Shown piece after piece: positions 9,877-12,835 of a stretch of 13,875 nt of DNA. Made by a program: the position numbers and the translations under genes. Under the pieces are notes generated by a model. That model made no database searches and had not been told where the DNA came from. It saw nothing but the letters and a program-made list of their open reading frames with translations. Every line of letters starts with the position of its first letter. Position 1 is the stretch's first letter. The stretch is from Kiritimatiellota bacterium (GTDB lineage: Bacteria; Verrucomicrobiota; Kiritimatiellia; JAAZAB01): positions 1 through 13,875 of the forward strand of contig VSJD01000145.1 in the NCBI GenBank assembly GCA_008636095.1. The letters run 5' to 3'.

Positions 9877-11976
9877 ATGGAAAAGTATGATGATGCCAGG
9901 AAAAGACTCGAAGCACAGTATCTGGACGTCAAGTACGATCCGGCGTCCGGCCTCTCAAAAGAGCAGCTTGTCGCGGAGCTTGAACGGCATCGCGCCGAAA
10001 ATCCGGAGGAGCCACGGATAATGACGCGGGCATGGCTCTTCCGCCTGCTGTGCTCAAAAGCTCGTATTGCCGTCGAACCCGATGACTACTTCGCCGACAA
10101 GCTGGAACATCACAATCTGATGCTGACGCTGCGCACGGAATGGAAGAGAGCGGAAGAGCAGAAGGAGTTCAAAAACGATCCGCCCTCCATTCCGGGGGTC
10201 TGGGGTGCCCAAATGGATACCGGCCATACCTGCCCGGACTGGAGAAATCTACTAAAATACGGGTTCCCTGGTTTGCGCGACCGTGCGGCAGCTCGCTCCG
10301 GTGTTTTCTATCAGGCGGTAGCCATGGTTTACGATGGCGCCATTATCCTGAGCAAGCGGTTTGCGGCGGCATTGCCCAACGTGGCGATTGCCACCGCGGC
10401 GATGGCCGCTTTGGCGGAACGTCCGCCGCAGACCTTCCATGAGGCATTGCAACTGGCCTATCTCTATCATGAGCTCCAGGAGATGGAGGATGGTTATTCG
10501 GTCCGCACCCTTGGCCGGTTTGACCAGCTCTACTATGGCTTCTATGCCAATGACCTGAAGGCCGGACGCCTCACCCGCGACGGAGCCAAGGAATTGATCA
10601 AGTATTTTTGGGTCAGGTTCTATGCCAAGACCCAGGGAAAGCTCAATGGCAAGCCCTTCCTCTTCGGACCCGATGTCAACGAACTGTCATATCTCGCCTT
10701 CGAAGTCTACAAGGAGATTCAGAACGTCGAGCTCAAGTTCCACGTCCGGCTTGCGGAACGCACGCCGCAGGACTTCCTCGAAAAGGTGGCCGAGTGTATC
10801 CAGGCCGGCAGTACCAGCATCCAGACGTTCAACGACGACAAGCAGGTTGAAATGCTGCGCCTGAACGGCAGGAGCCGGGAGGACGCAAGCGACTATATTA
10901 TCATCGGCTGCTGTGAACCGGCCGTAATGGGCAAGGAGATGAACTGCTCCGGGGCGGCGGGGATAAACCTCGCAAAGGTCGTCGAACTGGTTCTTGCCTC
11001 TGGGGACTATGCCACTTTCGACGAACTGATGGAGGCCTACATCAAGACTCTGGATGCGCAGTTTGCCATTAGCGCGGACAAGACTAGAAGAGAAGAGCGC
11101 CTGTGGCCGAAAGTCAATCCATCGCCGCTTCTTTCAGGCACAATGGATTCATGCCTTGAAAAGGGTCGGGACGTCTCCCAGGCCGGGGCCAAATACAACA
11201 TAACTGGCTACACTGCCTATGGCATCGCGAACGCGGCTGACTCCCTTGCGGTCATCAAACAGCTCGTCTATGATGAGCGACGCTGTACCCTCGCCGAACT
11301 TAGAGCCGCCCTGGCGGCCAACTGGAAGGGCTACGAAGAACTGCGCCTTACCGCGCAAAATCGCGTCCCGAAATGGGGGAACAACGATGACCGGGTCGAC
11401 AGCATCGCCGTCAGGATTACAGACTTCCTCGGGCCGCGGATTAATCGTGAGCCCAACGCGCGCGGCGGCGTTTTCCACGCGGCACTCTATGCCATCATTG
11501 ATTCCGCCAGGAATTTCGGGCAGCTGACCGGGGCGCTGCCGGACGGGCGCCTGGCAGGTGAGCACCTGACCATGAATACCAGCGCGAGCACCGGACGGGA
11601 CAAAAAAGGGGTGACTTCGCTGATCAACTCTGTAACGAAGGTCAACCTGTCCCTCTTCCCCATGGGAACAACGCTGGACATAATGCTGCATCCCAGCGCG
11701 GTGCGGGGCCGTGAGGGCATTGAAACTATTTGCTCGATCGTGCGGAGCCATTTTGCGCAAGGCGGCATGGCTATCCAGTTCAACATCTTCGACGCCGCAG
11801 CGCTGCGGGATGCCCAGCGGCATCCCGAGAAATATGCCAACCTTCAAGTGCGAGTTAGCGGCTGGAACGTACGGTTTGTTGACCTCGCGCCGGCGGAACA
11901 AGAGATATTCATAGTCAAGGCGGAGAATGCTAATGAAGGGACGTCTGCTCGACATAAAGCGCCTGACTGTGCATGA
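9877..11976 (+). CDS. Glycyl radical enzyme of the PFL/dehydratase superfamily, substrate unknown
   Basis: The product is 699 residues, shorter than typical members (about 760-850), yet the N- and C-terminal landmarks are present. The PFL-like domain has HTCPDWRNLLKYGFPGL, TLGRFDQLYYGFYANDL, NELSYLAFEVY and TSIQTFNDD. The thiyl radical site is GCCEP, with C345 as the probable catalytic cysteine, C346 next to it, and E347 at the position of the general base in glycerol and choline-type eliminases. The glycyl radical loop RVSGWNVRF has G662, 38 residues from the end. Such enzymes do radical C-C, C-N, C-O or C-S chemistry without oxygen. CxE argues for a lyase or dehydratase rather than pyruvate formate-lyase, and the activase type agrees. 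Start ATG 9877 has GGAG 7 bases upstream. No microcompartment targeting or shell genes are seen. Confidence 0.92.
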   Translation: MEKYDDARKRLEAQYLDVKYDPASGLSKEQLVAELERHRAENPEEPRIMTRAWLFRLLCSKARIAVEPDDYFADKLEHHNLMLTLRTEWKRAEEQKEFKNDPPSIPGVWGAQMDTGHTCPDWRNLLKYGFPGLRDRAAARSGVFYQAVAMVYDGAIILSKRFAAALPNVAIATAAMAALAERPPQTFHEALQLAYLYHELQEMEDGYSVRTLGRFDQLYYGFYANDLKAGRLTRDGAKELIKYFWVRFYAKTQGKLNGKPFLFGPDVNELSYLAFEVYKEIQNVELKFHVRLAERTPQDFLEKVAECIQAGSTSIQTFNDDKQVEMLRLNGRSREDASDYIIIGCCEPAVMGKEMNCSGAAGINLAKVVELVLASGDYATFDELMEAYIKTLDAQFAISADKTRREERLWPKVNPSPLLSGTMDSCLEKGRDVSQAGAKYNITGYTAYGIANAADSLAVIKQLVYDERRCTLAELRAALAANWKGYEELRLTAQNRVPKWGNNDDRVDSIAVRITDFLGPRINREPNARGGVFHAALYAIIDSARNFGQLTGALPDGRLAGEHLTMNTSASTGRDKKGVTSLINSVTKVNLSLFPMGTTLDIMLHPSAVRGREGIETICSIVRSHFAQGGMAIQFNIFDAAALRDAQRHPEKYANLQVRVSGWNVRFVDLAPAEQEIFIVKAENANEGTSARHKAPDCA

Positions 11977-12835
11977 CGGCCCCGGAATCCGCACGACCAT
12001 TTTTTTGAAGGGGTGTCCGTTGTGCTGCCGTTGGTGCCATAATCCGGAGAGCGTTTCGCCCAAGCCGGAAATCGGTTTCCTGAAGAAGAAATGTATCGGC
12101 TGTGGCAAATGTGCCAAGGTCTGTCCGGTCGGAGCGCATGTCTTCCACGACGGAATTCATGTTTTCAACCACGCGCTTTGCACGGCTTGCGGCAAATGCG
12201 TTGACGCCTGTGTGCCCGGCGCCCTGGAGTATTACGGACGGGAAATAACCGTCAAAGCGGCAATTGCGGCGGTTCTGGAGGACAAGACCTTCTACGCCAA
12301 GTCCGGCGGCGGTTGCACCATTTCCGGCGGCGAACCGTTGTTACAGGCGGAATTTTGCGCGGCGGTATTCCAACGATTGCGGGAAAATAACGTCCATTGC
12401 GCCATCGACACCTCCGGAGCGGTGCCGTGGGAAAATTTTGAAGCCGTGCTGCCGTATGCCGATCTGTTTCTTTACGATCTCAAACATATTGAAGACCGGG
12501 TTCACCGGCAGTATACCGGCGTTTCCAATCAACGGATTCTGGAAAATCTGCGCAAACTTTCGTCATGCGGTGTTCTGATCGAAATACGAATGCCATTGAT
12601 TCCGGGAATTAATAATGCAACTGCTGATCTGAAGGCCGCCGGTGAGTTTTTGTGCCGGCTTGCCAATATCAGCGTGGTGCGGCTCTTGCCGTATCATGCG
12701 CTGTCAGGTTCCAAATATGAAGCGGTTGGACGGCCGTATACTATGCCGGATGTGCCGGCCCCGGATACAGTCGCAATGGCAAATGCCGCTGAAATATTGC
12801 GGCAATCGGGGCTTAAGACGGTGATGAGCCAATGA
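11933..12835 (+). CDS. Glycyl radical enzyme activating enzyme (radical SAM)
   Basis: The product is 300 residues from ATG 11933, which has GGAG 7 bases upstream. An ATG at 11927 is only one base from that site and is less likely. The radical SAM cluster motif is C28xxxC32xxC35 in GCPLCCRWCHNPE. A two-cluster ferredoxin insert follows, C54IGCGKCAKVC64P and C83TACGKCVDAC93, then the SAM-binding ISGGEP (131-135). The enzyme cleaves S-adenosylmethionine and abstracts hydrogen from the glycine (G662) of its partner. The ferredoxin insert is typical of activases of eliminase-type glycyl radical enzymes and is absent from the pyruvate formate-lyase activase. The gene overlaps the enzyme gene by 44 bases, so translation is probably coupled. 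It is intact, and converges on the membrane-protein gene after 77 bases in which no clear terminator was seen. Confidence 0.95.
   Translation: MKGRLLDIKRLTVHDGPGIRTTIFLKGCPLCCRWCHNPESVSPKPEIGFLKKKCIGCGKCAKVCPVGAHVFHDGIHVFNHALCTACGKCVDACVPGALEYYGREITVKAAIAAVLEDKTFYAKSGGGCTISGGEPLLQAEFCAAVFQRLRENNVHCAIDTSGAVPWENFEAVLPYADLFLYDLKHIEDRVHRQYTGVSNQRILENLRKLSSCGVLIEIRMPLIPGINNATADLKAAGEFLCRLANISVVRLLPYHALSGSKYEAVGRPYTMPDVPAPDTVAMANAAEILRQSGLKTVMSQ

Follow-up and report, generated by a model that had tools for sequence, protein, structure and literature searches.

A glycyl radical enzyme and its activase in a Kiritimatiellota genome: a possible sugar-type eliminase apparently separated from its partner genes

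The glycyl radical enzyme locus

We analysed a contig of 13,875 nucleotides (VSJD01000145.1, contig C206; hereafter the window) from the Kiritimatiellota genome GCA_008636095.1 (3.8 Mb, 87% complete), which carries an oxygen-sensitive glycyl radical enzyme (GRE; 9877-11976, + strand, 699 aa; identified by profile scans, trees and alignment) and a radical SAM activase (11927-12835, + strand, 302 aa) whose gene overlaps the end of the GRE gene by 50 nt. Both genes are real and intact. The GRE matched the pyruvate formate-lyase (PFL)-like domain (PF02901, 352.8 bits) and the Gly_radical domain (PF01228, 81.0 bits) above cut-off and has the radical glycine loop and the thiyl cysteine of the superfamily. 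The coordinates and the motifs GCCEP, RVSGWN and DGYSVRTLGRFDQ reported in a first-pass annotation, made from the sequence alone, were confirmed in the translated open reading frame (ORF). The activase showed radical SAM and Fer4 domains (Pfam), scored as a cognate radical SAM activase with TIGR02494 (NCBIfam; 341.9 bits, cut-off 174.35) and contains two CxxCxxCxxxC motifs when read from the protein sequence, in agreement with the two ferredoxin clusters noted at first pass.

Directly upstream, a single frame at 9786-9890 (+ strand) reads VRQKVKWLLAGAGDI, then NKAWDKKFDQIAEKYHGKV and a stop that overlaps the GRE start. It is a deletion scar, in which the opening ~15 codons of a Gfo/Idh/MocA gene run on in frame into the closing ~18 of an NAD epimerase gene. 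The first half resembles the start of Gfo/Idh proteins (e.g. RVKWLLVGAGDI) and the second half the end of epimerases (e.g. DETWNRDFDRIVERY, HEEFDRRMDEIAEAYHAQ), and both matches fall in the same four loci, two from Zipacnadia (L007, L008), one from WS1 (L009) and one from the window's own phylum (L059), where same-strand Gfo/Idh/MocA and NAD epimerase genes precede the GRE. In nucleotide sequence, the first half matches each of the four loci at the corresponding gene position with 79-84% identity, and none of 5000 shuffles reached the observed score in any of the eight peptide comparisons. An uninterrupted frame encodes the epimerase in L007, L009 and L059, whereas in L008 it is split over two frames (a frameshift or assembly error); its frame overruns the GRE start in the window as it does in L007 and L008. 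The lineage therefore once had a Gfo/Idh-epimerase-GRE-activase operon, and a deletion took nearly all of the first two genes. The GRE had been described as stand-alone, which is true of the window today; ancestrally it was not, and a deletion made it so. The idea that the Gfo/Idh partner is a 1,5-anhydrofructose reductase found no support, as 2glx gave only 59.5 bits with the L009 protein and no NCBIfam cut-off was reached; the best PDB matches of that protein were 4had, an inositol dehydrogenase and an aldose oxidoreductase. A search of the window's own genome with the L009 epimerase gave no match at 1e-15, which, with no positive control for the search, says little.

An AraC-family regulator (8807-9724, - strand; PF12833 72.8 bits, PF00165 52.5 bits) diverges from the GRE. 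The ORF list starts it at a TTG at 9724, and an ATG at ~9685 is the more likely start. Just upstream of the latter lies a candidate shared operator or promoter (9686-9756, no strand assigned), since these 71 nt are 86% identical to positions 5518-5588 of contig C251 of the same genome. The whole match to C251, gene included, runs at 80% over 896 nt, and the two regulators are 72% identical over 290 aa. On C251, the AraC paralog diverges from an operon with genes for an NAD epimerase, an SDR, a GRE and a Gfo/Idh protein; its GRE (708 aa) belongs to another GRE branch, its Gfo/Idh protein is 44-45% identical to that of L008, and no activase was seen beside the operon on this 12.9 kb contig. The two loci would thus form one regulon, and the window activase may serve both GREs.

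Family placement, active site and fold

The window GRE comes from a large branch of the superfamily and belongs to no characterised GRE group among those tested, which supports the first-pass view that it could not be assigned to a named class. Its best NCBIfam score was with the broad PFL2-3 subfamily (364.8 bits, cut-off 678.2), and it scored below one third of the cut-off with every equivalog listed: trans-4-hydroxyproline dehydratase HypD (NF043068, 292.5 vs 1100 bits), CutC (TIGR04394, 266.8 vs 1050), HpsG and HpfG (NF048011 and NF048009, 257.9 and 298.3 vs 1000 each), HPAD and indoleacetate decarboxylase (NF033715, 205.3 vs 1150; NF033718, 219.1 vs 1100) and PFL (TIGR01255, 98.8 vs 994.2). 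The C418-C419 pair described in abstracts on PFL was likewise not found, the second cysteine standing at +1 rather than -1 of the thiyl cysteine, and Glu is found where PflB has Ser. The highest-scoring model for the activase was the HypD-activase equivalog (344.9 bits, below the cut-off of 425). Among PDB sequences, the best match of the GRE was glycerol dehydratase 1r8w (265.7 bits), compared with 171.6 (7kq3), 202.0 (5ymr) and 150.7 bits (4pkc) for IslA/IseG and BSS, while a profile of the clade (see below) matched Archaeoglobus fulgidus PFL2 best (2f3o, 340.1 bits). Identity to solved PFL-type GREs was 18-29% over the structural alignments listed, and 34% to E. coli PflD over 535 aa aligned by BLAST. 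In the literature, GRE similarity networks have been built at ~60% (PMC6453916) and 62% identity (PMC6386719).

Phylogenetic placement was based on an L-INS-i alignment of 88 GREs analysed with FastTree and IQ-TREE (LG+R4; stopped at 200 iterations, with UFBoot flagged as unconverged at a correlation of 0.999). All 35 window-type sequences grouped together (support 0.999 / 100 in FastTree / IQ-TREE) within a wider RVCGWN clade of 57/57 sequences (0.998 / 100). The 12 references, PflB, PflD, YbiW, CutC, a Peptoclostridium GRE, two HypD, two HpfG, HPAD, glycerol dehydratase and A. fulgidus PFL2, fell outside this clade in both trees, including PflD and YbiW (0.998 / 100); the two HpfG, one HypD and HPAD were identified by NCBIfam cut-off only, and the reference set was drawn up without IslA and BSS. 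A search for relatives gave 315 sequences, and the residue counts below rest on the 120 listed, window GRE included. The other 119 are 57-81% identical to the window GRE and, where named, are called relatives of pyruvate formate-lyase or of glycyl radical enzymes, or hypothetical proteins. Most are 678-687 aa long (~681 typical), so that the shortness remarked on at first pass, while true of the protein, is no anomaly. A literature search found no description of the clade in titles or the openings of abstracts, although the whole-superfamily tree of PMC11528403 may well contain it unnamed.

The radical residues are kept. Cys345 (thiyl), Cys346 and Glu347 (base; 10909-10917, + strand) align with C433, V434 and E435 of glycerol dehydratase, Tyr538 with Y640, and Gly662, the predicted glycyl radical site (11860-11862, + strand), with G763. 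His117 (10225-10227, + strand) is the equivalent of H164, as phmmer pairs GHTCPDW with GHVSVDY, albeit in a weak stretch. C345, E347, K259, E354, S358, W663 and Gly662 are present in 120/120 listed relatives, and His117 and R210 in 119/120, with a gap in the remaining one. Glycerol dehydratase H281, S282 and D447, which contact the substrate, correspond to S208, V209 and G359. The first-pass proposal that an active-site His is replaced by Tyr does not hold, because H281 lies opposite Ser208 and not Tyr207, and because CutC (Thr), HypD (Asp), PflD (Ser) and A. fulgidus PFL2 (Gln) also have no His in this column, which is therefore no general feature of eliminases. Position 207 itself is variable (Y 49, E 34, M 16, I 15, V 4, A 1, gap 1).

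GCCEP and RVSGW had been read as departures from known eliminases. Both are present, but what was overlooked is that the clade's own motifs are GCYEP and RVCGW, with Tyr at position 346 in 116 and Cys at position 661 in 118 of the 120 listed. Ser661 occurs only in the window GRE and its nearest relative P0002 (S346 and S661), which are sisters and both lack Tyr346. We rejected a coupled change of the two residues, as the basis for it is two sister sequences and thus one event at most.

An AlphaFold2 model from an 18-member alignment (pLDDT 86, pTM 0.87) was placed by Foldseek closest to glycerol and propanediol dehydratases (1r8w and 5i2g first), HypD and PflD. VIA-align gave 34.8 and 34.6 for PflD, 33.8 for glycerol dehydratase, 33.6 for HypD, 25.3 for PFL and ~20 for class III RNR. 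By its predicted fold the protein belongs with the eliminase-type GREs, but the fold singles out no substrate.

Distribution, gene neighbourhoods and sister enzymes

The closest named relatives of the window GRE, among the matches listed, came from Zipacnadia metagenome-assembled genomes (MAGs; 78 and 75% identity), whereas the loci recovered from its own phylum reached at most 64%. At 1e-100, the four same-genus genomes searched yielded no clade member; across the phylum at least 30 of 387 genomes, the window's own included, carry one at 1e-150, a lower bound because scoring covered the top few candidates in each genome. Members also occur in Armatimonadota-type MAGs, and all 142 records from a plasmid search were below 60% identity. 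Horizontal transfer is likely.

Neighbourhoods were surveyed at 27 loci, one of which (L060) is on the same contig as L011 and, although counted here, was left out of the Pfam count. An activase is present in 25 of them and a divergent AraC gene lies upstream of the GRE in 11. The arrangement of regulator, enzyme and activase, suggested at first pass as something to look for elsewhere, therefore recurs, but not as the same trio: the GRE-adjacent regulators of L009, L012, L062, L066, L067 and L075 have a common sensor domain, to which that of the window regulator showed no detectable relation (best E 0.014) and which L070 joins marginally if at all. The scar, the deviation from the clade's own motifs and this difference in sensor domain are additions to the first-pass annotation. 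Its statement that no microcompartment genes accompany the enzyme was borne out, with no match to the shell protein family PF00936 in the 87% complete genome and positives in 2 of 14 control genomes.

For a Pfam comparison, 89 of 120 candidate neighbour ORFs were set against 89 of 177 control ORFs, hand-picked and called by a simple length rule, with 25 of 74 and 25 of 116 families listed, respectively. An enrichment of glycoside hydrolases around the clade was not borne out, as control regions hold them too. Some clade members adjoin carbohydrate esterases and phosphorylases. At 5 of the 19 loci of the Pfam count, a small carboxymuconolactone decarboxylase-like (CMD) protein lies near the activase or GRE (L012:10945-11319, L061:1459-1842, L062:6384-6767, L065:6369-6752, L066:2368-2754).

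The window's genome also encodes a 914-aa GRE on contig C285 (10557-13298; L005:1477-4221, - strand) that is sister to the RVCGWN clade (support 1.0 / 99) and has GCWD in place of GCxE. It begins with a Glyco_hydro_2_N domain, the sugar-binding domain of GH2 enzymes (31.7 bits, cut-off 28), and a PDB search with its first 200 residues retrieved carbohydrate esterases and GH2 enzymes (7kmm best, 2.9e-22). The same GH2-GRE arrangement was seen in a genome of another family (L113, G241:C278) by alignment over most of the domain, although this piece, cut by the contig end, gave no Pfam match to it. Most other sister-family members found align only from ~residue 190 on and are without the GH2 domain. 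One GRE in the Acetitomaculum ruminis genome of L015 (L090, G403:C18) carries an in-frame TGA (GHMTP-TGA-Y) in what seems to be the His164-loop segment, which is either a selenocysteine codon or the mark of a broken gene. The in-frame TGA pattern caught 4 of 13 sister-family loci, and among these four the TGA lies inside the protein in L090 only; in L112 and L120 the TGA is the ordinary stop at the protein end, and the same is true of L118, which has a further TGA upstream.

In L066 (157-7942), L067 (8081-15557) and L068 (1246-6505), a window-type GRE and activase lie beside one or two 731-753-aa GREs of a GCYEF/GCYEA subclade, and the single activase could serve them all. In the uncultured Lentisphaeria genome of L012, five different GRE genes (628-694 aa) follow one another in the same orientation, with one activase gene and an apparent alcohol dehydrogenase gene between them (L152:3089-15156, G401:C369). 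The window's genome encodes a further GRE of 931 aa with an N-terminal SCP2 sterol-transfer domain (L002:223-3018, + strand, G000:C342), nearest to A. fulgidus PFL2 in FastTree. As for the rest of the window, an esterase gene (PF00756) lies further upstream, as does a large ORF that, from its sequence, is presumably an isoleucyl-tRNA synthetase; two proteins, one of 251 aa (3694-4449, - strand) and one of 174 aa downstream of the activase on the opposite strand (12913-13437, - strand), had no family match in NCBIfam or Pfam at E 0.001.

Candidate function and comparison with known systems

With a probability of about 0.48, we suggest that the window encodes an eliminase-type GRE of an uncharacterised, horizontally mobile clade, which with its activase would act as a C-O eliminase of a sugar-type polyol and has been split from its partners. 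The activase would place a radical on Gly662, which would oxidise Cys345 to a thiyl radical; the latter would abstract hydrogen from a hydroxyl-bearing carbon, Glu347 would accept the hydroxyl proton, and cleavage of the vicinal C-O bond would yield a carbonyl product. The substrate would most likely be a cyclitol, an anhydrohexitol or a sugar, fed or drained by a Gfo/Idh/MocA dehydrogenase and an NAD epimerase; with both genes deleted from this operon, the C251 set would supply their activities in trans. C-O elimination is the likely chemistry, and the odds for a sugar-type substrate are about even. In favour of such a substrate, the deletion removed a dehydrogenase of sugar type and an epimerase, the sister GRE has a Glyco_hydro_2_N domain, and carbohydrate esterases and phosphorylases adjoin some clade members.

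A number of observations weigh against this assignment. The substrate class is drawn entirely from partners and relatives, and the nearest NCBIfam models of the Gfo/Idh protein, inositol and levoglucosan dehydrogenases, are far under cut-off. Members of this Gfo/Idh subfamily turned up at 7 places in 387 genomes but adjoin a GRE at only 2 of them, and in G119 a Gfo/Idh-epimerase pair has no GRE match within the 13 kb examined. Carbohydrate enrichment in the neighbourhoods is weak (AraC 9 vs 6, Gfo/Idh 5 vs 2, per 89 proteins), the most specific neighbour being the CMD-family protein (5 vs at most 1 in the control, 89 vs 89). The three glycerol dehydratase contacts are not kept, and C346 and S661 are the true oddities of the window GRE, both so rare that its function may have drifted.

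That the enzyme is losing or changing function, being part of a transferred operon that shed its partner genes and has begun to drift at C346 and S661, is unlikely, though the least so of the four alternatives considered here. The deletion scar, the restriction of S661 to the window GRE and P0002 and the negative search of same-genus genomes are consistent with it, but neither reading frame is disrupted and every radical residue is kept, the activase still overlaps the GRE gene, and the FastTree branches of the window GRE (0.12) and P0002 (0.14) are of a length also seen among their neighbours (0.06 to 0.33). Less probable again is a lyase acting on C-N or C-S bonds, or some other reaction of the superfamily that is not C-O cleavage; Cys-x-Glu GREs do include C-N and C-S lyases, CutC among them, and IseG is a further example (PMC6453916). 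Against such a lyase stand the CutC, HypD, HpsG and HpfG cut-offs, none of which was reached, and the nature of the partners as sugar-type oxidoreductases. We think it improbable that the enzyme opens phosphorylated anhydrohexitols in the manner of E. coli PflD/YbiW, which cleave C1-O5 of 1,5-anhydrohexitol 6-phosphate to give 1-deoxyfructose 6-phosphate. Least likely of all is that the enzyme dehydrates glycerol or 1,2-propanediol in a pocket that has diverged: 1r8w leads both the PDB sequence matches and, with 5i2g, the Foldseek ranking, yet the contact residues have become Ser, Val and Gly, the reference enzyme falls outside the clade in both trees, and no microcompartment gene was found in the genome.

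The C-O eliminase reading allows a bolder extension, to which we assign a low probability, namely that the GCYEP/RVCGWN clade and its GH2-fused sister are carbohydrate-acting radical lyases that take hydrogen from a sugar carbon and expel the neighbouring C-O bond, be it a ring ether or a glycosidic bond. If so, keto or anhydro sugars made by radical lyases would then be processed by Gfo/Idh dehydrogenases and epimerases, and anaerobes that degrade polysaccharides would possess, in many paralogous copies, a radical means of opening sugars or glycosides. Much new anaerobic chemistry has come from GREs, and the references tested include no characterised member of this clade; the scar names its missing partners, and the GH2 fusion in the sister lineage offers a first concrete substrate class.

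Among known systems, glycerol and 1,2-propanediol dehydratases (1r8w, 5i2a) resemble the window GRE in fold, thiyl Cys, Glu base, His164 and Tyr640 equivalents and glycyl loop. Unlike them, the window GRE is without H281/S282/D447, has a shortened loop before the Asn-x-Leu-Ser helix, is 88 residues shorter than 1r8w and comes from a genome in which no microcompartment gene was found. HypD is similar in that its activase model scores highest with the window activase, but the GRE itself is far below the HypD cut-off, and HypD has Asp at 281 and Leu at 447. A. fulgidus PFL2 (2f3o), for which we know of no substrate, has a Trp after the radical Gly and is the best PDB match of the clade profile, but has Asp at the 447 column and falls outside the clade. 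The anhydrohexitol-6-phosphate lyases PflD and YbiW (8id0, 8yjo, 8id7) also lie outside the clade in both trees, and the partners lost from the window lineage were a Gfo/Idh dehydrogenase and an epimerase; PflD nevertheless has the best structural Z to the window model, tied with glycerol dehydratase, and a sugar-like substrate is what the two systems would have in common.

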